The position numbers were made by a program, and so were the translations under genes. From Neptunicoccus cionae (GTDB lineage: Bacteria > Pseudomonadota > Alphaproteobacteria > Rhodobacterales > Rhodobacteraceae), in contig NZ_BMKA01000001.1 in the NCBI RefSeq assembly GCF_014643735.1, positions 806,001-870,000 on the forward strand: a stretch of 64,000 nucleotides of DNA, given 5' to 3'. Below the pieces are notes generated by a model, which was given only the letters and a program-made list of their open reading frames with translations, did not search any database and was not told the origin of the DNA. Position 1 is the stretch's first letter. Every line of letters begins with the position of its first letter. Positions 24,810 through 55,981 of the stretch are shown here, piece by piece.

Positions 24810-25774
24810 GCACTGCACCTGTGATGAAGGCCGAGGCGCTTCAGCGTCACTATGAAGTCAGCGGCGGACTGCTGCGAAAGCCCAACATCCTCAAAGCGGT
24901 GGGCGGCGTGGATTTCGCGCTTTACCCCGGCAAAACTCTCGCCGTTGTGGGGGAAAGCGGCTGTGGCAAGTCAACGCTTGCCCGTCTTGTCACCATGATC
25001 GAGGAACCGACTTCGGGCAGCCTGACGCTAGACGGGAAACCTGTGGTGTCATCCGATTGGGCCAGCCTGCGCAAATCTGTGCAGATTGTGTTTCAAGACC
25101 CTTATGGATCGCTCAACCCGCGCCAGCGGATCGGGCAGATTTTGCAGGAACCCCTGATCATCAATCGCCCCGATATTTCCAAAGCGGAACGGGAAGCCAA
25201 AGCGCGGGAAATCCTGTCGCTGGTGGGGCTTCGCCCTGAACATTATGACCGCTACCCCCATATGTTTTCCGGCGGGCAACGCCAGCGTGTGGCGATTGCA
25301 CGGGCGTTGATGCTGGACCCGAAGGTTCTGGTGCTGGACGAACCTGTTTCCGCGCTTGACCTGTCAATCCAGTCCTCGGTTCTGAACCTGCTGGTGGATT
25401 TGCAGGAAAAGATGCAACTGGCCTATCTGTTCATCAGCCACGACCTGAGCGTCGTGCGCCACGTGGCGGATGAGGTAATCGTGATGTATCTGGGCCGCGC
25501 GGTTGAGCGGGGCAGCAAGGACGACCTGTTCGAGGCGCCAAAGCACCCCTACACAAACGCGCTGCTGTCTGCGACGCCGCAGGCGGATCCGGCAAATAAG
25601 AAGCGCCAGATCAAGCTGAAAGGGGAGCTGCCGTCACCGCTCGCCGTGCCGGAGGGCTGTCCCTTTGCGCCGCGCTGCTGGAAGACGCAGGACCGCTGCC
25701 GCGCAGAACGGCCGGAGCTGGGCGTTACCTCCCACACAGCGGCGTGCTTCTTTCCTGAAAACGCAGACGCGTAA
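24806..25774 (+). CDS. Peptide-type ABC transporter ATP-binding protein (DppF-like)
   Basis: Second ATPase of the pair, 322 residues. Walker [10 protein letters not shown], signature FSGGQRQR, Walker [13 protein letters not shown], switch ISHDLSVV, and the C-terminal Cys segment [14 protein letters not shown]. It starts in an ATGA overlap with the previous gene and is the last gene of the operon. The next feature, 25 bases on, is a truncated gene on the other strand. Confidence 0.92.
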
Positions 25775-25798
25775 CCGCTGCCCCAAAAAGGTGCGGGA

Positions 25799-26058
25799 TC
25801 AGGGGGCTTCCTGATCCTGCCCGTTGCCTTTGAAATAGGCCTTCGCCGCCTGACGCAAGTTCGGGTCAAACAGGTAAAGGGCTGCAGCATAAATGACGAT
25901 CGTTGGCAGCGATGCGGCCAGCACGCGCAGCAGATCGGGCAGCCCGTCAAACCACGCAAGGTCGCGTAGGACCACCAGAACTACAGTTGCGAGCACCAGT
26001 GGCGCAATAATAAAACGGCTGTGACGGGCAAACCCCTGCCACGCCACCGCGCCGTATT
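25799..26058 (-). pseudogene. C-terminal remnant of an oligosaccharide flippase-like membrane protein
   Basis: About 85 codons read leftward from about 26058 to the TGA at 25799. They encode two hydrophobic helices (FIIAPLVLATVVLVVL and LAASLPTIVIYAAALYL) and a charged cytoplasmic tail. This resembles the last helices of Wzx-type polysaccharide flippases, which normally have 400-500 residues. The rest is missing: the frame continues only antisense to the polyketide synthase. A short inverted repeat (GGATCAGG at 25796-25803, CCTGATCC at 25810-25817) with T-run on the minus strand may be the old terminator. Family assignment from such a short piece is tentative; the truncation itself is clear. 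Confidence 0.55.
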
Positions 26059-26061
26059 TCT

Positions 26062-28629
26062 GTGTCAGAGCTGTTTGAAACACCGCAACTGGGCGCATTG
26101 GCCCGCAAGCTGGCCGAACAGGGCGCGACTTACGGGCGGGCGGTAGATTCCAAGCCGTCAGAAACAGAACGTGAGGTATCGGACCAAGACATCGCAATTG
26201 TCGGCCTGTCCGGTCGGTTTCCACAGTCAGATTCTGTAGACGGGTTTTGGGACAGCCTGTGTCAGGGGCGCGATCTGATCTCGCGGTTCGATCGGTCTGA
26301 AATGGAGGACGCCGTATCGCCAGCGGACCGCGCCAAGGCGAATTATCGCACGGCCCGTCCGGTTTTAAACGATGTGGATATGTTCGACGCCAAGTACTTT
26401 GGCATTCTGCCCAAAGAGGCCGCTCTGATGGACCCGCAAGCTCGGGTGTTCCTTGAAATTTGCGTTCATGCACTGGAAGATGCAGGCCTTGATCCGCAGC
26501 GCACGGAAGCGGCAATCGGTGTCTTTGCAGGGGCCAGTTACAGCACTTATATGCTGGCCAATATCCTGACCGACAGCGCGGCGCTGACGGATTTCACCTC
26601 GCAGTTCCAGCTTGGCAATTATGCGGCGTTCACCGGCAATATCGGCGACAGTCTGGCGACACGGGTGGCGTATAAGTTGGATCTGAAAGGTCCGGCAATT
26701 TCGATGGGAACGGCGTGTTCAACCTCGCTGACCGCGATTTCGCAGGCCTGTGTGTCTTTGCGCGCGGGGCAATCGGATGTGGCCTTGGCGGGGGGCGTCT
26801 CGATCACCTTCCCCCAGAAAAGGGGCTATTTCAGTCAGGACGGCGGCATGGCGTCGGAGGATGGCACCTGCCGCCCGTTCGATGCGGCTGCCAATGGCAC
26901 GGTGTTTGGTCACGGGGCTGGTGTTGTGGTGCTGAAACGCCTGTCGGACGCGCTGGTAGCAGGGGACCGGATTTACGCAACCATTCGCGGTGTCGGGATC
27001 AACAACGACGGGGCAGACAAGCTCGCCTATACCGCGCCATCTGTGAACGGTCAGGCCGAGGCGATCCGGCGCGCCCACCGCGATGCAGGTATTGATGCGG
27101 CCACTATTTCCTATGTGGAGTGTCATGGCACCGCGACGCCGCTTGGTGATCCCATTGAAATTCGCGGTCTCAGCACGGCGTTCGGTCCCCAAACGGCCAA
27201 CCGTTGTGCGCTTGGTTCGGTCAAAGGGAATATCGGGCATCTCGGCGCGGCGGCGGGTGTGGTCGGGGTGATCAAGACGGCCCTGATGCTGCACCACAAA
27301 AAGATCCTGCCGGTGGCAAATTTCACCAGCACCAATCCCGATATTGATTTTGAAGGCGGACCTTTCTTTGTGCCCGCAGGCTTGCAGGACTGGAGATGTG
27401 ACGGGCCACGGCGCGCGGGGATCAGTTCTTTCGGGATCGGCGGAACCAACGCCCATCTGGTTCTGGAAGAGGCACCGACGACAGGGCAACAGCCTGATGT
27501 CACTGCCCCGCAAATCCTGCCTCTGTCTGCCAAATCGCCCGAGGCTTTGGCTGAAATGGCTGCAGGGCTGGCGCAGGCCTTGGAAGCTGATGCACCGCCA
27601 CAACTATCTGATGCGGCCTTTACCTTGCAAGAAGGACGCAGCCGCTTTGACTATCGCGCTGCCGTGGTTGCCCGTACCACTGAGGAGGCCGCGGCTGCGC
27701 TGCGCAAATTGCCCGCTGTGAAAACCCGCACGCCTTTGGATGCGCCGGGGGTTTTGTTCATGTTCGCAGGGCAGGGATCGCAGTATCCCGGTATGGGGCG
27801 CGGGCTTTATGAAACCGCGCCAGAGTTCACCCGTTGCATTGATCAGGGCGCAGAGATTTTGCAGCCGTTGATCGGGCGCGACATTACCGAAATTCTCTGC
27901 CTCGCGGACGTGTCGGATGAAACCGCCGCGCAGGCCTTGCGCGATACCCGTCTGACGCAGCCTGCGTTGTTCCTGATCCAATACGCCAATGCACGCCTGT
28001 GGCAATCACGCGGCGTGCATCCGGCTGCGATGATCGGCCATTCTGTGGGTGAATCTGCCGCTGCCGCGATTGCCGGCGTGTTTGATTTTGAAACCGGCCT
28101 GAAGATGATCGCGAAACGGGGCCAGTTGATGCAGGATCAGCCTGCGGGCGGGATGTTGTCTGTGCGTGCGACGCGCGACGATCTGGAACCGTTCCTAACC
28201 GATGGTCTGGACCTCGCTGCGCAGAACGCGCCGACGCTGCAGGTTGTTGCAGGGCCGGACAGCGCCCTTGATACGTTGAAGGACAGGCTCGATGCGGCGG
28301 GGCTGGCGTCAAGCCGGTTGCACACATCCCATGCCTTCCATTCGGCAATGATGGATCCGGTCGCAGAGGCTCTGGCCTCTGAATTCGCCGCTTTCCAGTT
28401 TAACGCACCCCGAATCCCTTACGTGTCCTGCGTCACAGGGGACTGGATCACCCCCGCTCAGGCGGTTGATCCGGCTTATTGGGCGGCGCAGGCACGAGCT
28501 TGCGTGAATTTTAAGGCGGGCATCCGCACCGCCACACAGGATAAGTCTGCCGTATTGCTGGAGGTGGGCGCAGGGCGCACGCTTTCCGCCTTTGCCGCGC
28601 AGACTTTGGAGCGCTGGCGTGCCGCTTGA
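26062..28629 (+). CDS. Type I polyketide synthase, KS-AT part (truncated at both ends)
   Basis: Open frame of 855 codons. It begins inside the last helix of an acyl-carrier domain (LFETPQLGALARKLAEQ), so the natural N-terminus is missing; the GTG at 26062 is only the first usable start. A complete ketosynthase follows (residues ~43-470; Cys219, His355, His393), then a complete acyltransferase (~560-845; Ser661 in GHSVGES, and HAFH at 757-760, the malonyl-CoA pattern). The frame then stops early: the sequence shifts to another frame at about 28600, with a short stretch of linker missing. The KS and AT could still fold, but the multidomain enzyme is broken. Confidence 0.85.
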   Translation: MSELFETPQLGALARKLAEQGATYGRAVDSKPSETEREVSDQDIAIVGLSGRFPQSDSVDGFWDSLCQGRDLISRFDRSEMEDAVSPADRAKANYRTARPVLNDVDMFDAKYFGILPKEAALMDPQARVFLEICVHALEDAGLDPQRTEAAIGVFAGASYSTYMLANILTDSAALTDFTSQFQLGNYAAFTGNIGDSLATRVAYKLDLKGPAISMGTACSTSLTAISQACVSLRAGQSDVALAGGVSITFPQKRGYFSQDGGMASEDGTCRPFDAAANGTVFGHGAGVVVLKRLSDALVAGDRIYATIRGVGINNDGADKLAYTAPSVNGQAEAIRRAHRDAGIDAATISYVECHGTATPLGDPIEIRGLSTAFGPQTANRCALGSVKGNIGHLGAAAGVVGVIKTALMLHHKKILPVANFTSTNPDIDFEGGPFFVPAGLQDWRCDGPRRAGISSFGIGGTNAHLVLEEAPTTGQQPDVTAPQILPLSAKSPEALAEMAAGLAQALEADAPPQLSDAAFTLQEGRSRFDYRAAVVARTTEEAAAALRKLPAVKTRTPLDAPGVLFMFAGQGSQYPGMGRGLYETAPEFTRCIDQGAEILQPLIGRDITEILCLADVSDETAAQALRDTRLTQPALFLIQYANARLWQSRGVHPAAMIGHSVGESAAAAIAGVFDFETGLKMIAKRGQLMQDQPAGGMLSVRATRDDLEPFLTDGLDLAAQNAPTLQVVAGPDSALDTLKDRLDAAGLASSRLHTSHAFHSAMMDPVAEALASEFAAFQFNAPRIPYVSCVTGDWITPAQAVDPAYWAAQARACVNFKAGIRTATQDKSAVLLEVGAGRTLSAFAAQTLERWRAA

Positions 28630-29051
28630 TTTTGCGGATGCCGGACCACGGGGCGTGCGCCGTGTCTCGCTGCCGGGCTATGCGTTCCAGCGCAAACGGC
28701 ACTGGGTGACACCTGAACCGGTGCAAACCCTTGCCGCCCCACAATCCACAGCAGCCCAACCGACTGCCCCCCTGAGTGAAACAGTAAAGAGTGATCCGGT
28801 CATGACCATGAATGCAAACGTTTCCCCTGTTCCGCGCACCGAGCGTTTGCGTGGCGAGCTTATGGCCCTGTTGTCGGACCTTTCGGGGGAGGATCTTGGC
28901 CTTGATGAAGTGGATGTGACCTATCTGGAACTGGGTTTTGATTCACTTTTTCTGGGGCAGGTGTCACAGGCGTTATTGCAAAAATATGATGTAACCCTGA
29001 CCTTCCGCAGCTTACTGACGGAATTCCGGCAATCGCCGATCTGGCGGGCAA
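28592..29051 (+). pseudogene. Polyketide synthase fragment: AT tail and acyl-carrier domain
   Basis: This is the continuation of the KS-AT gene in a different frame. It opens with the post-AT linker (RRLWSAGVPLDFADAG, then VSLPGYAFQRKRHWV) and carries one acyl-carrier domain with the phosphopantetheine serine in LGFDSL (codon at 28943-28945). After LLTEFRQSP the homology ends abruptly near 29042, and the aminotransferase homology starts near 29050 in a third frame. The missing part is the end of the carrier domain, the linker and the first portion of the aminotransferase. Confidence 0.75.
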
Positions 29052-29078
29052 ACCGCCTTCGGCCACTCGCCCGAATTT

Positions 29079-32000
29079 GTGAGCCGTGCGGTAAAGGCGC
29101 AAATGGAGCGGGGCTATCCCATCGGCCCGCAATCCGAGATCGCAGGGGCCGTGGCGGAACGGTTCGCTCGTATGGTGGAGCACGAGCGTGTTACATTCTG
29201 CAACTCCGGTTCTGACGCGGTGATGGCCGCCATGCGATTGGCGCGATCCGTGACGGGGCGCGATAAGGTTGTGATCTTTGAAAATGATTACCACGGCCAG
29301 TTTGACGAGGTGCTGATCAAGGGCAACGCCCGTGGCAGTGCGCCTACGGCTTTGCCACTGGCGTCTGGTATTCCGCGCAGTAGCCTGTCCAATATGGTGG
29401 TGCTGCCGTATGGGGCCGAAACATCGCTCGACTGGATCAAAGAGAACGCCAAAGACATCGCGGCGGTCATTGTTGAACCGATCCAAAGCCGTCACCCCGA
29501 GATGCAACCCATTGAATTTGTGCGAGCTTTGCGTGAATTGACCAAGAACTCCGGTACAGCGCTGGTGTTTGACGAAGTGGTCACAGGGTTCCGCACACAT
29601 GCCAAAGGTGTGCAGGGTGAATGGGGTATTCAGGGTGATATGGCCACCTATGGCAAGGTTGTCGGTGGCGGTATGCCCGTTGGCGTGCTTGCAGGGGACG
29701 CGCGCTTTCTTGATGCGCTTGATGGCGGGTACTGGAGCTATGGCGATGACAGCAAACCGGAAGTCGCGCCGACCTATGTGGCAGGGACTTTCGTGCGTCA
29801 TCCACTGGTACTGGCGGCGGTTGATGCCACGCTGGAGCATATGGAGAACCACGGCGAGCGTTTGTGGAAAGACACTGCCGCGCGGGCGATCGGTTTGCGC
29901 AAACGGATGAACGCATTTCTGGTCAGTCGCGGTCTGCCAGAGCTGGTTACGGGCCATTCCAGCTGGATCGTCCTTAATGTCACCGGCTTTGATCCCCGCG
30001 CGACGCTGCTTTATCCGCTGATGCGCTTTGACGGGGTCCATCTGATGGACGGGTTCTGCGGCTTCCTGACAACCGAACACAGCGACGCCGAAGTCAACGC
30101 CGTGGCGGAAAGCTTTGAGCGTGCGGTGCGGACCTTGCAAGAGCAGGACATCCTGATCGGCGAGGGGAGGGTCACCGAGGTTCCCTTGGCTGTGCCTGCT
30201 AGACTCGCTGGGGACGAGACCTTCCCCCTGACCGAAAGCCAGCGCGAAATCTGGATGACTAACCAGCTCGGGGATAGTGCTTCGTTGTGTTTCAACGAAG
30301 GGGCTGTGCTGGATCTGGAGGGGCCGCTGGATGATGCGGCGCTAAGCTTTGCGCTTGACCAGATTATTGCGCGTCATGATGCTTTGCGTGCGGTGTTTGA
30401 TGCGTCAGGCAACCATTTCACGGTGCAGGCGCCATTCCATTTGCAGATAGAGGTCACAACTGCACCGAAAGGGGCATTTAATGAAACCCTTGCGCGGGTT
30501 GCCGATGAAGAGGCCCGTTATCCCTTTGATCTGACGGCACAGCCTGCTTTCCGCGCGCGGTTAGTTCAGGACGGGCAAGATAAGCACGGGCTGGTGCTGA
30601 CCGCCCATCACATCATCTGTGACGGCTGGTCCCATAACATCCTGTTTGAGGAACTCGCCGCCCTTTACCGCGCGCAAACCGGTGGAGCGGCCGCAGATTT
30701 GCCAGAGCCTGCGTCTTTCGCAGCCCACGCCCGCCGCGTGCAGAATATGGCGCCACGGTCCGAAACCCGCGCTTTCTGGGCGTCGCAATATCAGGATATT
30801 CCGTTCCTGCCTGAATTGCCTTGTGACCGACCACGCCCCCAACGGCGCAGCTTTGCCGGTGCAACGCTGACACGGTTCATATCCTCTGATCTGATGATTG
30901 CGGCGCGTAAGGCCGGGGCAAAACAGCGATGTACCTTGTTTGGCACCCTGTTCGGCGCGTTGCAAATCACGCTTGGGCGGCTGTCTGGCAGTAATGATGT
31001 GGTGATTGGTGTTCCCACCGGCGGCCAGGCCCAGCTTGAGAACCCGACCATGATCGGCCATGCGGTGAACCTGCTTCCGATCCGTGCCACAATCGATCCC
31101 GCGGCTACTGTTGCTGATCATCTCAAACGGGTGAGCGGAGCAGTCATGGATGCGTTTGATCATCAGGATTACACCTTTGGGACGCTGGTGCAGGACCTTA
31201 ACGTGCCACGCGCGTTGAACCGTTTGCCGCTCACGGAAATCCAGTTCAATCTTGAGAGCCTGCCGGAGGATCTGGATATGGGTGCTGTGCAGGTGAAGCT
31301 GGCCCCGAACAAGAAGGCCGGATCGAATTTTGATATGTTCTTTAACGTGGTGGAATCCAAGGACGGGCTGCGGCTCGACGTGGATTACAACTGCGATGTC
31401 TTTGAAGCGGGCACGATAGAACGCTGGATCGGCCATTTCGAGCACGTGCTTTGCAGCATTGCGACAGATACCGCGCTAGCGGTGCGGGATCTGGACCTGA
31501 GCACACCAATTGCGGGCGGTGCAGTAGATCAAAGCTACGCGGATTACGACCGCAGCGCCATGATCCAGACGTTGGTGGATCGTACTGCGGCGGTATCTCC
31601 CGATGCGATTGCGCTGGAGGACGGCACACGTCAGCTTAGCTACCGCGCATTGCAACAGAACAGCGATGCGCTGGCGGCCCATATTCAGACGCAGGTCGCC
31701 GGAACGGGTCAGCGGATCGGTCTGGTGATGGGGCGTTCTGTCGATATGGTTGTCGGGTTGCTCGCGATACTGAAGGCGGGGCATACCTATCTGCCGCTTG
31801 ACCCGACCCAACCCGAAGCGCGACTGAAGCTGATCCTTGAAACCGCCAAAGCGGCCGCTGTTTTGACCGATACGCCCGCGCAACTGGGTTACGCATCAGC
31901 GGCTGGTGCGGTTTTGATTGATGCGGCGTCTGCTACGGCGGGGGCTGTGCCTGCACAGGTGTCCCATGATCCCGAAGCCAGCGCCTATATTATCTTTACG

Positions 32001-33377
32001 TCAGGGACGACTGGCACGCCGAAAGGGGTGGAAATTCCGCACCGTGCTGTCGTGAATTTCCTGAACTCTATGGCGCAAAAGCCTGGTTTGGTGGCAGAGG
32101 ATACACTGCTGTCCGTGACAACGGTGATGTTTGATATTGCGGTGCTGGAATTGTTCCTGCCGCTCAGCGTGGGCGCAAAATGCGTCATTGCCAGCAAGGA
32201 ACAGGTTCTGGACGGTTTCGCGTTGGTGGATCGTTTGCAGCAGGGCGATATTACAGTCATGCAAGCAACGCCGACGCTGTGGGATATGGTGCTGGATGCG
32301 GGATTCGCGCCCCAAGCGGGCATGAAGGTGTTGGCAGGTGGGGAGCCTTTGCCAAAAGATTTGGCCGCGCGTTTGATGGCGCAAGGGGCAGAGCTGTGGA
32401 ACATGTATGGCCCAACCGAAACCACCATCTGGTCTGCGGTTGAAAAGGTAGCCGCAGACGAACCGATCACTATCGGCCACGCTATTGCCAACACCAGCCT
32501 TGTGATCCTTGATGCAAACGATAAACAAGTGCCGGTTGGCGTCACCGGGGAGTTGAATATCGGGGGGGACGGGTTGGCCAAAGGCTATCTCGATCGCGCT
32601 GACCTGACTGGGAAGGCATTTCGGAATGTGACCGTGAAGGGCACGTCAGAGCGGCTCTACCGGACAGGGGATCTTGCGCGCCAGACTGCTGCTGGCACGA
32701 TTGAGGTGCTCGGGCGGATTGATACACAGGTGAAGCTGCGCGGCTTCCGCATCGAACTGGGCGAGATCGAAAGCCGCCTTCGCGGTCTGGACGGTATCCA
32801 CAAAGCGGCCGTGGACGTGAAGACCCGCGCCAGCGGGGACCGACAGCTTGTCGCCTACATCGTCGCGGACGGTGGTGCGACGCCGGATGTCGGTGAAATG
32901 CGCCAAGGCCTCGCTGCGGTGTTGCCAAACTATATGGTGCCGCAGGCCTATGTGTCGCTGGACGCCTTGCCCCAGACCGCCAACGGCAAACTGGACCGCA
33001 AGTCGCTGCCGGACCCTGATACCGCGCCAGAGATCACGTCTGAACCAGTGGCGCGTGCTGTAACGGAGGCCAAAACCCCGACTGAAGAACAGATCCGCAA
33101 TATCTGGGAGAACGTGCTGGGGCGTGGGAATATCTCGACCACGGACACGCTTTTTGACCTTGGCGTTGATTCCCTCATGGTGTTCCGCATCGCGGCCCGT
33201 CTAGCCGAGGCGGGGTTGAACCTGCAAGCCAAACACTTGCTTGATCACCCAACCATCGCAGCGCTTGCCGCTTTTGCCGACAGCGCGAGTAAGGCGGATG
33301 CGCCCAAGGTTCCTGCCGCGCTATCTTTAAAAGACTGCCGCTATGGCGCACGTCGAACCGTGGGGATCGTACAATGA
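29079..33377 (+). CDS. Aminotransferase-condensation-adenylation-PCP nonribosomal peptide synthetase (N-terminus lost)
   Basis: Frame of 1432 codons; GTG 29079 is not a natural start, because aminotransferase homology runs a few codons further back to about 29050. Domains: glutamate-semialdehyde-aminotransferase-like AMT (residues ~1-370, PLP Lys193 in YGKVVGGGMP); condensation (~380-810, intact HHIICDG at 510-516); adenylation (~825-1315; FTSGTTGTPKG, NMYGPTETT, Lys in NGKLDRKSL); and a carrier domain with Ser1365 in GVDSL. AMT domains after a ketosynthase-ACP make beta-amino acyl chains, as in iturin-type synthetases. The A-domain pocket reads D-I-L-Q-L-G-M-I-W-K, one change from the published glycine code. 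It overlaps the next gene by ATGA. Confidence 0.88.
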   Translation: MSRAVKAQMERGYPIGPQSEIAGAVAERFARMVEHERVTFCNSGSDAVMAAMRLARSVTGRDKVVIFENDYHGQFDEVLIKGNARGSAPTALPLASGIPRSSLSNMVVLPYGAETSLDWIKENAKDIAAVIVEPIQSRHPEMQPIEFVRALRELTKNSGTALVFDEVVTGFRTHAKGVQGEWGIQGDMATYGKVVGGGMPVGVLAGDARFLDALDGGYWSYGDDSKPEVAPTYVAGTFVRHPLVLAAVDATLEHMENHGERLWKDTAARAIGLRKRMNAFLVSRGLPELVTGHSSWIVLNVTGFDPRATLLYPLMRFDGVHLMDGFCGFLTTEHSDAEVNAVAESFERAVRTLQEQDILIGEGRVTEVPLAVPARLAGDETFPLTESQREIWMTNQLGDSASLCFNEGAVLDLEGPLDDAALSFALDQIIARHDALRAVFDASGNHFTVQAPFHLQIEVTTAPKGAFNETLARVADEEARYPFDLTAQPAFRARLVQDGQDKHGLVLTAHHIICDGWSHNILFEELAALYRAQTGGAAADLPEPASFAAHARRVQNMAPRSETRAFWASQYQDIPFLPELPCDRPRPQRRSFAGATLTRFISSDLMIAARKAGAKQRCTLFGTLFGALQITLGRLSGSNDVVIGVPTGGQAQLENPTMIGHAVNLLPIRATIDPAATVADHLKRVSGAVMDAFDHQDYTFGTLVQDLNVPRALNRLPLTEIQFNLESLPEDLDMGAVQVKLAPNKKAGSNFDMFFNVVESKDGLRLDVDYNCDVFEAGTIERWIGHFEHVLCSIATDTALAVRDLDLSTPIAGGAVDQSYADYDRSAMIQTLVDRTAAVSPDAIALEDGTRQLSYRALQQNSDALAAHIQTQVAGTGQRIGLVMGRSVDMVVGLLAILKAGHTYLPLDPTQPEARLKLILETAKAAAVLTDTPAQLGYASAAGAVLIDAASATAGAVPAQVSHDPEASAYIIFTSGTTGTPKGVEIPHRAVVNFLNSMAQKPGLVAEDTLLSVTTVMFDIAVLELFLPLSVGAKCVIASKEQVLDGFALVDRLQQGDITVMQATPTLWDMVLDAGFAPQAGMKVLAGGEPLPKDLAARLMAQGAELWNMYGPTETTIWSAVEKVAADEPITIGHAIANTSLVILDANDKQVPVGVTGELNIGGDGLAKGYLDRADLTGKAFRNVTVKGTSERLYRTGDLARQTAAGTIEVLGRIDTQVKLRGFRIELGEIESRLRGLDGIHKAAVDVKTRASGDRQLVAYIVADGGATPDVGEMRQGLAAVLPNYMVPQAYVSLDALPQTANGKLDRKSLPDPDTAPEITSEPVARAVTEAKTPTEEQIRNIWENVLGRGNISTTDTLFDLGVDSLMVFRIAARLAEAGLNLQAKHLLDHPTIAALAAFADSASKADAPKVPAALSLKDCRYGARRTVGIVQ

Positions 33378-36106: not shown

Positions 36107-36135
36107 GTAGATCGCGCAAGGTGTAGGGGCCGTGT

Positions 36136-36798
36136 TCAGCGGCGGGTAACTGTAACAGGGCGTGCGTGGCTGAACACCGCAATTGCGCCCACCAAATCCG
36201 GTGCGAAATCGAGATGATGCAGGCTCAGACTGTCCACACAAGCCGGATCGGGCGTATAGCGAAGCAGTTGGGGCGGCGTGTCCGGTGTCAGGGTGACATC
36301 AAAACTGTCCAGCTCTACCGAAAGACCCTCTCCACGGGCTTTCAGGACGGCCTCTTTGCGGGTCCAGCAGCGGAAAAAACCGTCCGCAAACCGCGTTGGG
36401 CCCAAGGCTTCAAGTTCCTCTCGCTCTCGCAGGGAAAAGAACCGCTCCGCAAGGTCGGTCTCTACGGGACGGTAGTGCTGGATGTCGAGCCCGAGATCGC
36501 AGCCCCGTGTAACCGCAAGCGCGGCTTGGTTTTCCGAATGACTGAGGTTGAAAAACACATCCCCCGCCAGTGCCGGTTTGCCGTTGGGGCCATAGTCAAA
36601 CGCCAACCCGCTGGCCGGTTTGCCAGTGTATTGGGACAGAATGTGCCGCAGAGTCGCGCGACCCACGGCATAGCGGTTCTGATGCAAAGGCTGCACAAAC
36701 CTGCGCGCACGCTGTTGTTCGCCGCTGCTCAGAACCGACAGGTCGACATCCTGCCGTGCATCCAGATCCCAGACCCAAAGATCGATATTCACTTCCAA
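36136..36798 (-). CDS. Sfp-type 4'-phosphopantetheinyl transferase
   Basis: Enzyme of 220 residues that moves phosphopantetheine from coenzyme A to the conserved serine of carrier domains. It has the magnesium-binding GLDIQHY and the WTRKEAVLKARG motif, with the substrate loop NGKPAL and FFNLSHSE in between. Its length matches the Sfp group. It converges on the synthetase gene with 29 bases between stops, so it very likely activates the PCP and ACP domains of this cluster. The gene is intact although much of its assembly line is broken. Confidence 0.92.
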   Translation of the reverse strand: MEVNIDLWVWDLDARQDVDLSVLSSGEQQRARRFVQPLHQNRYAVGRATLRHILSQYTGKPASGLAFDYGPNGKPALAGDVFFNLSHSENQAALAVTRGCDLGLDIQHYRPVETDLAERFFSLREREELEALGPTRFADGFFRCWTRKEAVLKARGEGLSVELDSFDVTLTPDTPPQLLRYTPDPACVDSLSLHHLDFAPDLVGAIAVFSHARPVTVTRR

Positions 36799-36875
36799 AC
36801 CGGTATTGCCCTGCCGTTTCTGTCACTCGGGCGACACTGGCACAACTGCCCCCACAGGTCGAGAGGTGTAACCCC

Positions 36876-38678
36876 ATGTTGAAATCCCTCCTGATCCGGC
36901 TGGCAGCTCTTTTATGTGTTATCGGCGCTGCGCTGGTCTTTACAGAACAGGGACGCGCAGTTTTGCGGCCTGTGAAGCAGATGCTGGACTTCCGCGCCTT
37001 TGCGGCCGAACTGCCGGTCGCGACCAAGGTGAAGGAGCATCAGGTGGCAATGCCCGATGGGGTGACGCTGGCCACGGATGTCTACCTGCCTGAAGGTGGT
37101 GCTGCGCAAAAGCCGGTGGTGCTGGTGCGGCTGCCCTATGGCAAGCGGGTCTACGGCGAGGCGTTGCATTGGGTGCGCCTGTTCAGCGCCAATGACTACG
37201 CTGTTGTGGTGCAGGACATGCGCGGGCGGTATGGATCGGGCGGAGTGTTTGCGCCCTATCCGAACGAACGGGGCGACGGGGTGGCCACGCTCGACTGGAT
37301 TTTGGCGCAGGAATGGGCGCAGCCTGTTGTGGGCACGATCGGGTGCTCTGCGCTGGGCGAAACGCAGGTCTTGCTGGCCGCAGAACGCCATCCCGCCCAC
37401 CGCGCCATGATCCCGATGGGGGCGGGCGGTGCAATCGGAACCGCGCAGGGCGCCTACGGGTTTTACGGCTTCTTTGAGGGGGGTATCCTGAACCTTGCCT
37501 CCGGTTTTGGCTGGTTTCAGGGGCAGGGCGGTAAGACAGGCGATCTGATGCAGGCCCCGCCTTTGGACTACACAGAAGCGCTGAAAACCCTGCCGGTGAT
37601 CGGGGCCGTCGCCCGTTACCGCGCGGATGCCACCGATTTCGAAGAGCTTTTGCGCGGCGTTGATGATCCCGAGATTCATAACACTTGGGGGTATATCTCG
37701 GATCGGGACCGGTTCGATGTGCCAACCCTGATGGTGGACACGTGGTATGACTATGGCATCGGGTTCAGCTTTCAACTGTTGGACATGATCCGCAAGGGTA
37801 ACCCCGAAAGCCGCTTCCTGATTGCTCCGGCGACCCATTGCGACATGGCTGGACCCCTTTCCAGCGGGGCGGTCGGCGATGTGCCTGTAAACCCGCAACA
37901 GAAGGTCGATCTGGACGGGATTTATCTGTCGTTTATGAACGCGCATCTGAAGGGGCAGGCGGAAGCGCCCCAGCCGACTTTTCAGTCCTATGTGTTGAAC
38001 CGCGATGACTGGCTTGGGTCGTCAATCTGGCCGCCGCGTGCTGCCGAGCGGAAGCGGTTTTACCTGCGGGGTAAAGCATTGTCCGAAATGCCTTCTTCAG
38101 CGACAGATACCCGAATATTTCATTCCGATCCTTCTAATCCGGTGCCAACCATTGGCGGGGCGATTTGCTGCACCGGCGATCCGGAATCCCGCGCCGGTCC
38201 GCTGGATCAATCCCCGCTGGAATCGCGGGACGATCTGCTGATTTACACCGGTGAATCCCTCACCCAACCGCTTGATATTGCAGGGCCGTTAAGGGCTGTG
38301 TTGCATGTATCCACGGATGTGCGGGACACCGATCTGGTGGTGCGGTTGACGGATGTGAGTCCGGATGGAAAATCGGTTTTGATACAAGAGGGCGCCTTGC
38401 GCCTGCGGTATCGCAACGGTTTTGATACGCCTGAACTGATGCAAACGGATCAGATTTACCGCGCCGAGGTTTCCCTGCGCCACATCGCCTATCGCCTTAA
38501 ATCCGGTCATCAATTGCGCTTGCACGTGGCGGGCAGCAGCTTTCCGCGCCTTGCCAGACACATGAACACCGGCGGTGATCCCTACCGCGAAAGCGATCCG
38601 CAAATCGCGCGGATCACCCTGCACAGTGGCGCGGGGGGCGAAAGTTTCGTGGACCTGTTTACCCTGCCAGCGCCCTAG
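36876..38678 (+). CDS. Membrane-anchored CocE/NonD family hydrolase
   Basis: Serine hydrolase of 600 residues; the ATG at 36876 follows GAGAGGTG. An N-terminal hydrophobic helix (LLIRLAALLCVIGAALVF) should export or anchor it, so the catalytic part is periplasmic. The X-Pro dipeptidyl-peptidase (S15)/CocE fold has nucleophile Ser158 in IGCSALGE and a late histidine in APATHCDMAGP. The C-terminal jelly-roll (residues ~390-600; DLVVRLTDVSPDG, HQLRLHVAGSSFPR) is typical. The family cleaves amides and esters such as cocaine and acylated beta-lactams. Next to a peptide synthetase it may trim or destroy the product during export; that is inference. Confidence 0.85.
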   Translation: MLKSLLIRLAALLCVIGAALVFTEQGRAVLRPVKQMLDFRAFAAELPVATKVKEHQVAMPDGVTLATDVYLPEGGAAQKPVVLVRLPYGKRVYGEALHWVRLFSANDYAVVVQDMRGRYGSGGVFAPYPNERGDGVATLDWILAQEWAQPVVGTIGCSALGETQVLLAAERHPAHRAMIPMGAGGAIGTAQGAYGFYGFFEGGILNLASGFGWFQGQGGKTGDLMQAPPLDYTEALKTLPVIGAVARYRADATDFEELLRGVDDPEIHNTWGYISDRDRFDVPTLMVDTWYDYGIGFSFQLLDMIRKGNPESRFLIAPATHCDMAGPLSSGAVGDVPVNPQQKVDLDGIYLSFMNAHLKGQAEAPQPTFQSYVLNRDDWLGSSIWPPRAAERKRFYLRGKALSEMPSSATDTRIFHSDPSNPVPTIGGAICCTGDPESRAGPLDQSPLESRDDLLIYTGESLTQPLDIAGPLRAVLHVSTDVRDTDLVVRLTDVSPDGKSVLIQEGALRLRYRNGFDTPELMQTDQIYRAEVSLRHIAYRLKSGHQLRLHVAGSSFPRLARHMNTGGDPYRESDPQIARITLHSGAGGESFVDLFTLPAP

Positions 38679-38684
38679 GTGACC

Positions 38685-39896
38685 CTAACGCGGGGCAAAG
38701 CCAAGGTCGGAAAGGTTCCGCGCGATACCCGCCTGAAATGCAGCCTCATCGAACTTTGCGGCGTGACGGGTCAGGGCCTGCGGGTCCAGATCGTCCAGTT
38801 TCTCGGCCTCAAAGGTTTTCACAGCCTCCACCAACCCGTCCACCGAACAGTCCTGAAACAGCAGGCCGGTTTGGCGATCCACCACAGTATCGAGCGCCCC
38901 ACCGCGGCCATAGGCGATCACAGGACGGCCCGAGGCCATGGCCTCTACCGGAATAATCCCGAAATCCTCTTCTCCTGGAAAAATCAAAGCCTTACAGCGG
39001 GCCATATGGTCCTTCAGTACTGGAAACGGCACTTTGCCCAGGAATGTCACATTGTCCGGCGCGCTGCGGGCGAGTTTCTTCCACGTCTTATCCGGCCCAC
39101 CGATCACAACCAGCGGTTTGTTAAGACGGCGGAACGCTTCTATTGCGATGTCAGGGCGCTTGTAGGCCGCCAGCTCTCCGGCCCAGAGATAGATGTCACC
39201 GCGATCGCTGGCAGGAACCGGTGCGAAATCCTCTACGGCGACGGGGGGATGCACCACAGATGCATCGCGGCGCCAGTATTTGCGGATACGGGCGGCGACG
39301 TGGTTTGAATTGGCCACAAATCCGTCCACCCGCGCCGCACTGGTTACATCCCAAGACCGTAGCCCATGGGCCAGATGGGGCATCAACGTACGAGTAATCA
39401 GCCCCGCGCCATTGCGGTAGGTGTGGTACTGATCCCAAAGATACCGCATCGGCGAATGGCAGTAGCACAGGTGCGGCGCTTCGGGCGGCGCGATGACGCC
39501 TTTGGCAGGGCCAGCCTCGCTTGAGATCACCAGATCATATCCGGTCAGGTCTATCTCTTCCAATGCGCGGGGCATAAAGGGCAGGTACTTCTGATACATC
39601 TTTGCCGCCATTGGCAGACGCGACACAGAAGTGGTTTTGACGCTATGCCCGTTGATCAGATCGCTGATGGTTTCGGGCGTGTAGACATGGGTGAAAATAT
39701 CCGCCTGCGGGTACATCCGGCATAGGGATTCCAGAACCTTTTCGCCACCCCGCATCCCCACCAGCCAGTAGTGGATGATCGCCACGCGCGGCTGCGACCC
39801 CGTACTGTGCAATCGGGCAGGGGCAGACAACGCTGCTGCCGTGCCACGGGACAGGTCCGCCTGTTCGCGAAGTGGTGTGAAACGGTTATTCTTCAT
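38685..39896 (-). CDS. Family 4 glycosyltransferase (exopolysaccharide cluster)
   Basis: Cytoplasmic GT-B glycosyltransferase of 403 residues; the start is the ATG complementary to 39894-39896, overlapping the kinase gene's stop by 11 bases. The N-terminal domain has HYWLVGMRGGEKVLE, and the C-terminal domain has the donor-binding GEEDFGIIPVEAMASGRPVIA with the EX7E pattern. It probably adds one sugar to a lipid-linked repeat unit. Of the exopolysaccharide genes on this strand it is the only one I find uninterrupted. It converges with the hydrolase gene, with 6 bases between stops. Confidence 0.88.
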   Translation of the reverse strand: MKNNRFTPLREQADLSRGTAAALSAPARLHSTGSQPRVAIIHYWLVGMRGGEKVLESLCRMYPQADIFTHVYTPETISDLINGHSVKTTSVSRLPMAAKMYQKYLPFMPRALEEIDLTGYDLVISSEAGPAKGVIAPPEAPHLCYCHSPMRYLWDQYHTYRNGAGLITRTLMPHLAHGLRSWDVTSAARVDGFVANSNHVAARIRKYWRRDASVVHPPVAVEDFAPVPASDRGDIYLWAGELAAYKRPDIAIEAFRRLNKPLVVIGGPDKTWKKLARSAPDNVTFLGKVPFPVLKDHMARCKALIFPGEEDFGIIPVEAMASGRPVIAYGRGGALDTVVDRQTGLLFQDCSVDGLVEAVKTFEAEKLDDLDPQALTRHAAKFDEAAFQAGIARNLSDLGFAPR

Positions 39897-41836
39897 AGGC
39901 GTAGCCCCCGACAAATTCTCTGAAATATTCTTTCGGGTCCACCATGTTGAACACCAGACCGCTTGGCCGCGCGCGGGCATCCCCAAGCATCCCGAGCGCC
40001 TTTTTAACCGCCTGTTTCGGCGTTTCATTCCAGCGCACGACAAACACCAGACTGTCCACAGCACGCGCCAGCATCAGCCCGTCCGCAACAGCCAGAACCG
40101 GTGGAGAGTCGATGATAATCACATCATAACTCTGCTCTAGCAAGGACATGATTTCCGCCAGCTTGTCTTGCCCCAACGCATCTACAGTCTGGGCATGGGC
40201 CCCGTTGGACGTGAGGATATCAAACGGCATATGGGTGTCCGAATAAATCGCCTGATCCAGATCGCACGCCTGTTCAAGATAATCCGACAGACCGTAATCC
40301 ATATCCCAACCAAATTGCTGCGCCAGACCGGAACGGCGCAGGTCACAATCTACAAGGATCACCGATTTTCCGGTCTTCGCAATCATGGCCGCAAGGTTCA
40401 GCGTGGTGGTGGTTTTGCCTTCATCCGGTGTCGAAGATGTCACCAGAATTTTCTGCGTCTTTCCCGCAGGCAGTTGAAGCAGAACCGAAGTTCGCAACTG
40501 GCGGATGCGTTCCGCGTATTCACTGTTTGGCGCGTACATCACGTCTAGATAGCTGTCGACCGGATTATCCCAGTCGCCCGCTTGCAAGGATGCCAGCACC
40601 GGCAGGCCGGTGTCCGCTTCGATATCATCCTCGCTGCGGTAACTTTTGGATACAAACCCCAGATAAAACGTCACGCCAAAGCCGACCGCCATGCCCAACA
40701 TGGCCCCAGAACCGCGATCAGTTTGGGTTTCGGTGCGGACGGAGTCCCCGGTACAGTGGCCTGTTCAATGATCCGCGCATCCGCCTTTTGCAACTGTTCC
40801 TGACTGCGGGTTTCTGTCAGCCGGTTCAGCAGCTGTTCATAGGCCAGCCGCGCAGAGTTCACCTTGCGTTGAAGTTCCTCCTGATCCAGTTCGTTGGTGG
40901 AAATGGCAATCATCCGTTGCTGCATTTGTTCCATGTTGGACTGGATCGATCGTTCGCGGGCCTGTGCCAGTTGCACCTCGCCTCGGCCATGGTGCGATCT
41001 GTCTGCGCTTCGGACAGTTTCGTGGTCAATTCGAATATTTGTTGCGAGATCGCTTGTAAGCTGGTGCCATCCGCCTGCAAATTGGCCATCCGCCTGCGCA
41101 CACCTGCGGCCTGTGCCTCTTCCAGTTCGGCGCGCAGGATTTTCAGACGTTCCTCAATCCATGCCGTGGCCTGTTTGGCGACATTCTGGCGGTTTTCCAG
41201 TTGTTGTTCGATGTATTTTTCCGCAATCGTCTGCGCCAGCAGTGCCGAGAGCTGCGGGCTTTCGGTTTTGGCGGTGATGCTAATCACAAAAGACTTGCCT
41301 TCGCGCCGCACCGACAGGTTTTTGCGGATGACGTAGACCAGATATTCGATCTTGCTGCGCAGTGCCTGTTCCAATGTTGGAGGTTCGGGCGTCTTCATCA
41401 AACCGAAATCCCGCGCCACGGATTTTACACGGTCCTTCAGCCCCGGTGGCTGGTTCGCAGGATCAAGGATCGCGAGGCGTTCAAAGCCGATCTCGGCAAT
41501 CACCTTTTCAATCAGCAGGTTCGACTGGATCACCGCCGCTTCGGACAGGACAAGCTGGTCATTGATGTCGAGGTCGGAAACAACGTCCTCGCCGATTGTC
41601 ACCTGACTTTCGCGCGGGTCGAGCATGACCTTGGATTGCGCGCTGTAGGTCGGGGTAATCTGGGAGACCAGAACAAAGGCCAGAATGCCAAAGAACAGAG
41701 TGCAAAGAATGATCAGAATGCGCCGCCGCCAGATCATCCGCGCAAGATGTTTCAGGTCGACCATATCCCGATCATCTGCCCCAATCCGCTTCATCGGGAA
41801 GAAACCGTCCTCAAATGGGGGCTTGCGATTGTACAT
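39886..41836 (-). pseudogene. Wzc/ExoP-like polysaccharide chain-length determinant and BY-kinase, frameshifted twice
   Basis: One gene in three frames. The part from 41836 to ~40982 encodes the Wzz domain: a first membrane helix (ILIILCTLFFGILAFVLV), a periplasmic segment and coiled coil. From ~40980 to ~40700 the coiled coil continues in a second frame (EVQLAQARERSIQSN). From ~40701 to 39886 a third frame gives the second helix (MLGMAVGFGVTFYLG) and the tyrosine kinase with STPDEGKTTT, VILVDCDLRR and a tail of tyrosines (EYFREFVGGYAYEE). Each shift is fixed by adding one G in a G-rich run (near 40984 and 40703). Intact, it would control polymer length and export. Confidence 0.85.
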
Positions 41837-41958
41837 GACAATCTCGTACTCGTTAATCAAAACAACTTACGCGGAAACACCACCTATGATGTGCCTTCGG
41901 AAAAGGTTTGTGTCAAACTTTCCCATATTTTTAAGGGCTATTGTTGCGCCGTGACCGT

Positions 41959-42992
41959 CTAAGGGATGACCCGTTGCGCGATTGCCCCGTTTCGCTCAAC
42001 AATGGGGGAGGCCGCCCGTTTTTGTTTAATACGTGACTCTAAAGCCGCACCGCGGGCGAGTCCTGATGTCTAGCCCGCGAGGACAAAGAAGAAAATCTCC
42101 AGATCCGGTGTCGGCGTTGTTTATAGGGCCGAAATTACCAGTGCAAGGCAAGCGGTTTTCAGGCTGTGCAACACGGCGGTGTTCTGGACTGAACCGTCCT
42201 TGATCCGCGCACGTGACAGCGCACCCAGAAACAGCAGGTAAAGCGCGGTGCCGACCAGCCCGATGCTGCCCAGACAGGCCAAAAACCGAACAGACCATGC
42301 GTATAGAACCCGAGAGACGAGGCTTCGGGAAAACCGCCGATAATCCGCTTGAGCCCGGCCATTTTATGATCCACCAGCATGGAATAATTGGCTGTGCGGA
42401 TCGGCTCCAGCAATTCAGGCGCGCCAATCGCGAAGGTCAGAACATCAACCTAGCCGAGCATGAAATTCACCACCGTCGCGGCGATCATCGCATTGAGAAC
42501 TTTGTCAAAATCCGGTTTCGTCCGAAACAGTGTTGCCACTGCAAAGAAGGCCAGAACGTCCAGCATCAACCGAAACAACTGGGTGATATTTCCAGTGGTC
42601 GGGCGCAGGAAAACGGAGATAATCTCGGTCTTGTTGTCCGCACGGGAAATACCGAAAACCTCTGTCTGATAGGCAAAGAGACGCGGGAAAATTAGGGTGG
42701 TGACAATGCAGTAAATTGTCAGCAGCAACAGATAAAAACCGGGCTGTCCGGGCCGCATTGTACCTACAGTCCGCGCCGGACCGTTTGAACCAGAGAACAC
42801 CAGCGCGAACAGCACCAACCCACCCAGATCAATGATCCCGATAGAGGCACCGCCCACCGCAGGCATATTGAACGCCGCCGCCGCGCCAAAGGGGGACATG
42901 ATGAAAAACCAGTGCAGGCCCTGTTGCGGCCCTTGTTTCATCAGCATCACCACCAGAAGCAGGGCGAGAAGGGTGCTCGGGACGAGCTGCAT
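41959..42992 (-). pseudogene. O-antigen ligase/exopolysaccharide polymerase-like gene with several stops and a deletion
   Basis: Multi-helix membrane protein of the Wzy/WaaL type, read leftward from the ATG at 42992. After 180 codons an in-frame TAG occurs (42450-42452), yet the same frame goes on with good coding sequence (VDVLTFAIGAPELLEP, then GGFPEASSLGFYTHGLFGFW). Near 42285 the frame jumps and roughly a hundred expected residues are missing. The new frame (LACLGSIGLVGTALYLLFL) meets TAA at 42121-42123 and TAG at 42070-42072, with coding-like PDLEIFFFVLAG between and an open tail to the TAG at 41959. The intact protein would polymerise repeat units. Confidence 0.75.
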
Positions 42993-42997
42993 TGCAG

Positions 42998-44228
42998 TCA
43001 GGCGGCCCTATTAACCAACGTGTTATACATGGACAGCAGGCTATCGCCCCAACCCTGCGGTGTCATCGCAAAGGGGTTTTCATTGGCAAAGGCCGTTTCA
43101 CTGATCCTGCGCACATCTTGCGCCGGCATCTCTTTCATTTCGGTTAACGTGCGTGCAAAATCGGTCGGGTCAAGCACATTACAAGCCAAGCCTAGACCAC
43201 GGTTTGTGATTTCCTCCGCCAAAAAGGCCGTGTGGGGCAGGATCACTGGAAGACCGCTTTGCTGTGCTTCAATGGCGACCATTCCAAAGGGTTCGGCATA
43301 AAGACTGGGCATCACAACGGCGCGGGCTTCCTGCAACAAAACCGCAAGCCGAGGGGCATCGCACCAACTTTCCTGCCGCACCTCTGGAAACTCGGCTCGG
43401 AACATCTGCGACAGCGGTCCTTCCCCCACGGTCACTAGCGGCACATCTGCCGCACGCGCGGCGCGAGCCAGTTCGATAATGCCCTTATCCGGTTCCATCC
43501 GGCTCACGAAATAAAAGGCGCTGTTCTCCTCGGCTTTTACGCGCGATGCCGTGAAGGGGTGGCGGATTGCGCAGTGTTTTCAGAGTCATAGCGCCGCATC
43601 CGAAAGTCGACAGACGGTGCTGCATCTTGGGGTGGATCGCCACCACCGCACCCCATTTGTGCTTGTCTGTCAGAACGTGGCGAAGACCGGTTTGCCGCAA
43701 CACGCGCCAGCCCTTTTGGACATAAGATCGTTTGTCGCATTGGGTCGCAAGACAGGCCGGACCCAGTGGCGTGCGATCACAGGATATGCGCTTTTGAAAG
43801 TCATAAAACACCCCGTTTGGACAGGCAAGAAACTGGTCGTGGGAATGGATCACCACACGGGGCGCCACAGATTTCAATGCGCTAAAAATACTCGGCGACA
43901 GGATCAGGGACCAGGCGTGAACGTGATAAATTGTGTCGTCTGTATCGCGTTCGCGGATCAATCGTTCCAGCGCGGATTTGGCCCTGATGTTGTAAAGCCC
44001 GCTCGCCATCGCGTGTAGCTTTCCCTGTTCCAACAATGGTTTACCGCCCACCGAAACAATATCCACGCCGAGATCGGAAATCGCCGTGTGGCGCGCATCA
44101 TCGCCACAAAACAGGGTGACAGGGACGTCCCGCGCGCGAAACAGTTTGGCAGAAAGCAATGCCAGTGCCGTGGCCCCACCTCGTGCAAGACTAAAGTCGT
44201 TAATAATGACCCCCCGCGCGCAATTCAT
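42998..44228 (-). pseudogene. Family 4 glycosyltransferase, one frameshift
   Basis: Second GT-B glycosyltransferase of the cluster, about 410 codons. The N-terminal half (44228 to ~43575; NDFSLARGGATALAL, then HVHAWSLILSP) is joined out of frame to the C-terminal half, which reads PFTASRVKAEENSAFYFVSRMEPDKG in parts and carries the donor site SLYAEPFGMVAIEAQQSGLPVI. The shift is in the sequence CCGCCACCCC near 43555-43570. Restoring it gives a normal full-length enzyme. The ATG of the polymerase gene lies 5 bases past its stop, so they were one operon. Confidence 0.82.
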
Positions 44229-44341
44229 GAACTGTTTACCTTTGGTGCTTAGAAATGATTTACCCCAGATTAGGCAACAAGAGAGGCGGAATTATGAGGG
44301 TATTTTGACATTAACGATTAGGGTGCCAGACTGTGGTAATT

Positions 44342-46041
44342 CTATTTGGTGCGTAACAATTCCGACGTAGGGAAAATATCTGCCGAAAGGCGGATGCGGT
44401 GTTCGGTGTAGTCGACCCAAGGAGTGTCGTTGGGACTGATACTGAAACGCAGTCTGTCACCCCGTTTAAAAAAAATGTGGCGATCCTTGATATGCAGCTC
44501 GGTCTTGACCTGCTGCTCCATGATCGGGGTGTCGTTGACAAGGATGACAAGGCCTATCCCGTCTTCGCTTTTGCTGCTGACCTTCCAGCGGGCATCTATT
44601 GAAACGGCTACGTCGTATGGCGCTGTGTAGCTTTGCACGACGCTTACATCGCTGCCGTCCTTTTGGGTCGGCACAAGGAACTCTGCTGCCAGCCGCAGAT
44701 CAGGGAAATCCGCGTGGCCGAGGTAGGGCACCCAAGGCACGCCCTGACGCTCTTGTCCGGGCATGGTTTGAAAGGTCTGTTCGGTTCCATTGTGGAGGAT
44801 GCTGTTCTGCCAGACCGATTTGGCCGGCAAAGCCCCCAGTTTTGGATAATCCAACTGGTGAAAGCTATCAGCGAGAAGGCGCTGCGGTGTGAGCGTTATA
44901 TCTCGTGCCATCTGCAAAGGTTCACTGGATATAATAACTAGCGGGGCAATGGGGGAGAGGGACAGGTTCCCCTGATCGAGGAGCAGTCCGGTTGCCGTAA
45001 ACGCCGTAAGGGCGGGCGGGATGCCAATCTCGCGGGGCTCTCCCCAGATCACCAGTTTACGCTGATCAAACAGGCAGCCGTAGGTAAAAGGATCCGGCTG
45101 GATCGGCTCTACCGGAAGACCGGAAAATTCCGTCTGTGCAAACCCGAAGGCACGTCCGGTCGGAGTGGGCCTGCCAGCATCGTCGACAACCGGCACCAAC
45201 CCGTCGCCCCGTGGGTGCATCGGATACCAGACCGCGCGATCCACGCCGGACAGAGCCATCTGACAATAGTTGCGCAGCAGGAAACCGGGGGCGTTTTCTG
45301 CGTCTAATGTGCCAAATTCGGTGATCTCGATCGGGATGGTCTTTGCTTCGGGAAGGCGGCGCAGCACATTGATTTGACGCTGCAAATGTTCTGCGGGTGT
45401 GTCATATGTGTGCAGCGCCAGCGCATCGGTGTACGCCGCAGCGCCCTTGGCGTAGGTCTATCGCAAGATAGCCGACTGGGATGGAATGAACCTCGCCGCC
45501 GACAATGCGGATGTCGGGGTTTTGCGCTTTGACATTTTCATACACAGATTTCAGCAACGCCAAATAGTAACCCGCCCGCGCACCAAGATGGGGTGTGCGC
45601 ACGGGGCCGCTGACAAAATCATTTCCGTTAAACTCATTCCCGACTTCAACAGAACGGATGTTGGGATATTGCGCAACGGTGCGGGCTGCGTAACGCCCGA
45701 AGGCGGCTACCGCTGCGTCCGTATGTGCGGTTTCTCCACCGTCATAGGCCGGGTGGTAGGCGTTAATAAAAAGGCTCATATCCAGTGCGCGCGCGCAAAA
45801 TCCCGGGATAGGCACCGCGCCACCCGCGATAATCAAACCGTCCATCGTCTTTTTCAACCACGGACCAGTGCACGGTGTCGCGAAAGTCACGTACGGGGAT
45901 TTCGGCAGTCCCGTCCAGAATATCCGGCCGCCAACCCTGACTGAAATTTGCAGCATCACCAAGATCAGGGCCAACCTTAGGCTGCGCGATGCATTGATTG
46001 CCAAATGCCCCAAGGAGCAGTGCAGCAGCCTATCGTTTCAT
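44342..46041 (-). pseudogene. Clan-A glycosidase-like secreted protein, nonsense codon plus frameshifts
   Basis: The ATG (complement of 46039-46041) is followed by AAA, CGA and then TAG at 46030-46032, inside what reads as a signal peptide (AAALLLGAFGNQCIA). Good coding continues (SQGWRPDILDGTAEIP, DTVHWSVVEKDDGRFDY), shifts frame at a run of GC dinucleotides (45787-45796), continues with SVEVGNEFNGN (acid/base Glu), and shifts again near 45455 into the ITEFG frame (nucleophile Glu). A beta-rich C-terminal domain ends at 44342. The layout resembles GH39-like glycosidases of exopolysaccharide clusters. Confidence 0.78.
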
Positions 46042-46334
46042 CTGATACATTAAAGTGTTCCCAAGATGCCCAGTGCCCTGAAAGTGCGCCGCACACGATA
46101 CCGGCAATTTTAAATTTGCGCGAAATTGTGCTATTTCCAACCGTTTACCCCGAAAAAATGCGTAAAATTGGGCTGTTTTCAATTTTTAACGACTTTGTTT
46201 GGCCGCAATTCTGCCCAGTTTGTCCTGCATTTCGGGCGGATGGGACAGGCGCGGAATAGTGCTGTGTCCGGATGCCAGAGTAACCGTCGAACCGGACGTT
46301 CGGCGTGTCAGTAATGTAAAAGGATTTGTGTGCG
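46042..46334. other. Divergent intergenic region before the RTX glycosidase
   Basis: 293 bases without a gene, AT-rich in the centre (46110-46200). It should hold the old promoter of the leftward exopolysaccharide genes and that of the rightward RTX gene. An inverted repeat, CGAAC-CGGAC-GTTCG, lies at 46288-46302, 47 bases before the RTX start, and could be an operator. I see no convincing -35/-10 pair. Confidence 0.4.
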
Positions 46335-55980: not shown

Positions 55981-55981
55981 A

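Follow-up and report, generated by a model that had tools for sequence, protein, structure and literature searches.

A probable Wzx/Wzy/Wzc-type exopolysaccharide locus in decay, carrying a hybrid NRPS-PKS cassette, in Neptunicoccus cionae

RESULTS

Gene content and lesions of the island

The window analyzed here is a stretch of 64,000 nucleotides from N. cionae (contig NZ_BMKA01000001.1, positions 806,001 to 870,000). A sequence-only reading had described a decaying island of approximately 20 kb in it, set between intact flanks, and comparison with intact relatives bears this out. Breaks were judged against the intact proteins of four plasmid loci, the open reading frames (ORFs) of 24 loci (among the matches listed), and the reference locus L009. 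The full set of relatives comprises 84 loci, namely, the four plasmid loci together with the 80 best genome-contig loci from at least 524 confirmed relatives. When the broken genes are aligned to their intact homologues, as that reading had suggested, the relatives' proteins map onto the window in pieces, and the lesions recur against many relatives (tblastn with the plasmid proteins, the ORFs of the 24 loci, and L009). The proteins of the window are at most 77% identical to their nearest homologues (GTx, described below) and mostly 45 to 60%, and the right flank matches none of 394 family genomes at better than 75% DNA identity.

The forward strand carries an NRPS-PKS gene spread over three frames. 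KS and AT domains lie in frame 1 (26050..28614; Pfam, tblastn), a linker and a truncated ACP in frame 2 (28604..29026; weak PP-binding match in Pfam, tblastn), and an N-terminally truncated aminotransferase followed by C-A-PCP in frame 3 (29046..33377; Pfam, tblastn), a long open frame that matches relatives at 49 to 57% in tblastn. The three breaks claimed for this gene are all present, each with residues missing (tblastn): the A-PCP upstream of KS-AT is absent (reference residues 1 to 599), a frame change near 28.61 kb comes with the loss of approximately 30 residues, and near 29.03 kb approximately 190 to 240 residues, covering the end of the ACP and the N-terminal part of the aminotransferase, are gone with another frame change. 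Relatives (L101) have the whole assembly line, from the loading module through the carriers to the release domain; the window does not. The remaining pieces retain the KS Cys/His motifs, the AT GHSxG, the aminotransferase Lys, the HHxxxDG of C, and the PCP Ser. The loading A domain differs among relatives; the second A domain reads D-I-L-Q-L-G-M-I-W in the window, a putative glycine-type code, with the pocket residues taken from motif positions.

The genes that follow are open, as had been stated for four of them; the partial aminotransferase-C-A-PCP frame can be added to that count. A free-standing C-PCP-TE protein (33374..36106, forward strand; Pfam, alignment A1) has the invariant Cys of the TE motif in alignment A1. 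An Sfp/HetI-type phosphopantetheinyl transferase (PPTase; 36136..36798, reverse strand) is recognized by tblastn, with an NCBIfam match below the cut-off. In this PPTase, Gln replaces the near-invariant Glu of the GxDxE motif, presumably a metal ligand given what is known of Sfp, and the substitution is a possible silent lesion in an otherwise open gene. A CocE/NonD family serine hydrolase (36909..38678, forward strand; NCBIfam TIGR00976 over the cut-off, Pfam) is followed by GTx, the GT4-type glycosyltransferase of the locus (38685..39794, reverse strand; Pfam, tblastn, tree), which has Arg at a near-invariant Gly.

The remaining polysaccharide genes lie on the reverse strand and are broken. 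At the left edge, a C-terminal stump of approximately 68 residues is left of a Wzx-type oligosaccharide flippase (25802..26005; translation, matches to relatives); the 5' part is lost, and the stump abuts the truncated NRPS-PKS gene head-on. In 8 of the 12 upstream stretches examined in relatives, it has a weak match to the C-terminal portion of a flippase ORF (E values between 9e-10 and 0.06, the database being small). The flippase is intact in relatives (Polysacc_synt or Polysacc_synt_3, Pfam). Its truncation had been recognized from the sequence, within a 238-residue ORF whose remainder, beyond the approximately 68-residue stump, turns out not to be flippase.

At the other end, a Wzc-type co-polymerase/tyrosine autokinase is split over three frames (39889..41839; Wzz and AAA_31 in separate ORFs in Pfam, tblastn), whereas the intact Wzc of a relative shows Wzz, GNVR, and AAA_31 (Pfam). 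The two frameshifts reported earlier are confirmed, and approximately 75 to 80 residues that the earlier reading did not mention are missing near 40.98 kb; a frame change lies near 40.705 kb (matches listed, L009). The adjacent polymerase-like gene (42016..42992; alignment to relatives, tblastn) has no Pfam or NCBIfam match. Its damage runs from one in-frame stop, through a loss of approximately 130 to 140 residues with a frame change near 42.28 kb, to two further stops, in line with the three stops and the deletion seen before. The predicted structure of its intact homologue (mean pLDDT 75) has a sole PDB match under E 0.001, the O-antigen ligase WaaL (7tpg; Foldseek E 2.3e-5), and by this predicted fold the gene is a putative Wzy-type polymerase.

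A broken GT4-type glycosyltransferase (43013..44216; Pfam, tblastn) has the single frame change previously noted, near 43.51 to 43.56 kb. The last gene, a PslG-like (GH39-type) glycosidase in three pieces (44387..45987; tblastn), changes frame near 45.79 kb and near 45.46 kb; these two frameshifts had been predicted, together with a nonsense codon that falls away, as the three aligned pieces contain no stop. The gene has no Pfam or NCBIfam match. The predicted fold of an intact homologue (pLDDT 86) matches GH30 and GH39 enzymes, with the modular Xyn30D first (E 1.9e-18) and PslG (5bx9) at rank 5 (E 4.2e-17), and the single hit of a profile search of PDB sequences was a GH39 entry (E 0.0008). 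The window gives no tblastn match with the Wza of L002 or L004; Wza occurs in 4 of the 84 loci of relatives (the four plasmid loci and the best 80 of at least 524), including L002. Two other genes of relatives, the sugar transferase and the TIGR04325 methyltransferase, were likewise not seen there.

Linkage to the NRPS-PKS cassette in relatives

The gene order in relatives starts with sugar transferase and flippase, often followed by a TIGR04325 methyltransferase, continues with NRPS-PKS, C-PCP-TE, PPTase, and often a CocE hydrolase, and ends with GTx, Wzc, Wzy, glycosidase, pyruvyl transferase, and GT4. Intact copies in the same order are found on plasmids of Jannaschia, Rhodobacter, and Loktanella, and the order recurs upstream and downstream in other genomes; a Rhizobium plasmid copy has a different arrangement. 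The flippase of relatives runs with the NRPS-PKS gene, whereas the stump in the window runs against it, and therefore a rearrangement must be added to the best explanation.

Among the 84 loci (the four plasmid loci and the best 80 of at least 524), the set of KS-AT, aminotransferase, C-A, and C-PCP-TE is present in 77, the PPTase is present in 70, and two or more polysaccharide markers lie within the fetched flank in 60; the fetched flank of 22, mostly rhizobial or on short contigs, holds no such marker. In the Rhodobacterales loci of this sample that have both genes, GTx lies 0.7 to 3.0 kb from C-PCP-TE in 21 of 25. The distance from Wzz/Wzc to C-PCP-TE was followed in 19 genomes from the best 80 of at least 524, the first 13 chosen partly for GTx and then 6 others. 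With 37 Wzz genes in total, these genomes have the two within 7 kb in 15 cases and within 23 kb in 18; in the remaining one (G012), Wzz is on a contig other than that of C-PCP-TE. Because of these linkage counts, a reading of the exopolysaccharide and the peptide as separate pathways was dropped. The earlier proposal that selection was lost for both an exopolysaccharide and a hybrid peptide-polyketide thus keeps its local decay and loses its two-pathway framing, relatives having one conserved locus.

A protein with a GINT1_N-like domain (L004:22507-24168), beside C-PCP-TE in rhizobial loci, is a candidate recurring partner. It has matches in 50 of the 84 loci (best 80 of at least 524, and four plasmid loci) and, near GTx, in 5 of 14 loci with no NRPS-PKS nearby.

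Presence and absence of the cassette were compared in 394 genomes from one family, with thresholds of E 1e-90 for C-PCP-TE and E 1e-80 for GTx. C-PCP-TE was found in 13 genomes, several of these matches spanning the C domain only, and GTx in 36. All 13 genomes with C-PCP-TE also hold GTx (hypergeometric 3e-15, with no correction for kinship), which leaves 23 with GTx and no C-PCP-TE. In 11 of the 13 the two genes share a contig and lie no more than 25 kb apart; in G360 and G269 they are on different contigs. Inspection of 14 GTx loci without a nearby C-PCP-TE (12 of the 23 GTx-only genomes, plus G360 and G269) gave no match to NRPS, PKS, PPTase, or CocE at E 0.01 in any of them, and the Wzy-Wzc-GTx run is kept in six (L121, L122, L123, L126, L127, and L128). 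The NRPS-PKS cassette is a removable accessory, which related exopolysaccharide loci carry or lack.

The GTx tree has 40 rows; L004 and L130, long or unsure, were dropped, and rows from the C-PCP-TE search were all labelled cassette bearing. The cassette label requires six changes on this tree, with at least four of them forced by well supported branches. A single origin for the rows without the cassette is rejected (p-AU 0.002), the group having been named before the 40-row tree and after a quick 42-row tree that required seven changes. The GTx of the window groups with three cassette-less rows (support 97/87).

These changes of state, about six on the tree, and the several copies on plasmids could also indicate a horizontally moving hotspot in which NRPS-PKS and polysaccharide genes are merely neighbors and the peptide is an independent metabolite. 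Such an account is possible, if doubtful, since it sits poorly with a linkage that recurs in 18 of 19 genomes and with the short GTx to C-PCP-TE distance in most Rhodobacterales loci that have both.

Uneven decay between intact flanks

The lesions are unevenly spread. No lesion falls in the interior from approximately 29.04 to approximately 40.70 kb (11.7 kb; P = 0.0008 with 11 lesions and 0.006 with 8, under a uniform model applied post hoc to approximate lesion positions), and therefore loss of selection may be incomplete there. Deviations at near-invariant positions number 24/704 in the open block, 7/224 in the broken PKS pieces, and 19/251 in the broken polysaccharide pieces. The last deviate more than the open block (Fisher p 0.012) and rank high against leave-one-out relatives (combined p 0.007, compared to 0.065 for the open block), although these comparisons are rough because genes differ in tolerance and the rows are related. 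The fragments keep most near-invariant residues, which indicates that the decay is recent.

The gap between lesions, the fewer deviations than in the polysaccharide pieces, and the retained condensation, aminotransferase, and carrier motifs would all suit a middle block (aminotransferase-C-A-PCP, C-PCP-TE, PPTase, CocE, and GTx) that is still in use, in an island remodelled rather than simply lost. We consider this improbable. The lesion test is post hoc with approximate positions, the broken PKS pieces are equally low in deviations, and the PPTase and GTx carry the Gln for Glu and Arg for Gly replacements at near-invariant positions; moreover, the aminotransferase is truncated, and the block sits behind a broken KS-AT-ACP.

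The flanks had been described as unbroken, and the genes compared agree: transporters at 18.4 to 25.8 kb and a transglycosylase and a threonine dehydratase at 48.7 to 50.9 kb match relatives in one frame each, and the other flank genes were scanned with Pfam. Genome-wide decay is not supported by these compared genes, which cover part of each flank. The island shows the features of a recent pseudogene cluster, with disruptions not found in homologues, compared flank genes intact, and pieces still recognizable. Programmed frameshifting was dropped as an explanation because the frame changes accompany lost residues and the intact genes of relatives keep to a single frame. A mobile-element cause was likewise set aside: the Pfam hits include no transposase, no tRNA was found, and 25701-26060 and 45951-46340 share no exact repeat of 10 bases or longer. 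That some or all of the breaks are sequencing or assembly artefacts, as the single frame changes at several events and a run of five A near the break at 2 of 9 sites might suggest, is very unlikely given the intact tested flanks, the three in-frame stops of the Wzy gene, the absence, at the other 7 of 9 sites, of any homopolymer of at least 5 in the examined stretch, and at least five stretches of approximately 30 to 600 residues missing relative to relatives, which are too large for base-calling errors. The view that damage of mixed kinds argues against one simple artefact therefore holds.

Three further features of the flanks were recorded. Immediately to the right of the island is an open gene (46326-48689) with five stretches of RTX calcium-binding repeats. 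Omp85/TamA-like and TamB-like genes sit side by side (12773-18270) to the left of the peptide transporter operon. Of two M24 creatinase/prolidase-type peptidase genes (20807-21916 and 54814-56202), one is within the oligopeptide transporter operon.

DISCUSSION

The island at 25.8 to 46.0 kb is probably one exopolysaccharide locus of the Wzx/Wzy/Wzc type that carries a hybrid NRPS-PKS cassette and has decayed recently and unevenly. An intact cassette would consist of A-PCP-KS-AT-ACP-aminotransferase-C-A-PCP, C-PCP-TE, PPTase, and CocE hydrolase. The PPTase would arm the carriers, the first A domain would load an amino acid, KS-AT would add one malonyl-type unit, and the aminotransferase would convert the keto group to an amine. 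The second module would then add an amino acid, putatively glycine from its A-domain code, and C-PCP-TE would end the chain. A single KS-AT together with an aminotransferase should give a short chain bearing an added amine. Glycosyltransferases would build the polysaccharide, Wzx would flip it, Wzy and Wzc would polymerize it, and the PslG-like glycosidase would trim it. The short amino-acyl product might be delivered to the polysaccharide, as the linkage by itself suggests, or be made for use with it. The gene identities, the lesions, the conserved linkage, and the existence of cassette-less loci are observed, whereas the product, its attachment to the polymer, and the order of the lesions are inferred. 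It is possible, although less likely than not, that the cassette makes a short beta-amino-acyl peptide on the Wzy-dependent repeat unit, giving a peptide-decorated polymer, and that it is repeatedly gained and lost in Rhodobacterales, the window being a loss in progress. In the window, neither the line nor the polymer route can run, because the loading module, part of the ACP and aminotransferase, the flippase, the co-polymerase, and the polymerase are broken.

With Wzx/Wzy-dependent exopolysaccharide loci (Psl/PslG-like), the locus shares the flippase, polymerase, Wzc-type co-polymerase, GT4 glycosyltransferases, and PslG-like hydrolase. It differs from them in that relatives have a full NRPS-PKS set and a dedicated PPTase and that, in the window, most polysaccharide genes are broken and Wza was not seen. 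A second likeness is to hybrid type I PKS-NRPS clusters of the mycosubtilin/iturin and microcystin types, in which a class III aminotransferase is embedded. The KS-AT-ACP-aminotransferase-C-A-PCP order is common to these, unlike the A-PCP loading module in first place, the free-standing C-PCP-TE in last place, and the setting inside a polysaccharide locus. A multidomain acyl synthase is also tied to a surface polysaccharide in the rkp-1 capsule region of Sinorhizobium, where RkpA is fatty-acid/polyketide-synthase-like and is not known to have NRPS modules.

The accessible portions of the open-licence literature yielded no description of an NRPS-PKS set within an alphaproteobacterial exopolysaccharide locus; in the accessible part of PMC6256449, NRPS-PKS and exopolysaccharide-locus features are named separately. 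Within those portions, this silence is a weak sign of novelty. In our view the window contains a damaged example of an exopolysaccharide-locus variant that has been little described, a copy caught breaking down that reveals which parts broke. Should the linkage prove functional, many marine and soil alphaproteobacteria would use an assembly-line peptide synthase in making exopolysaccharide, and loci with and without the cassette would form ready-made pairs for testing what it contributes to the polymer.
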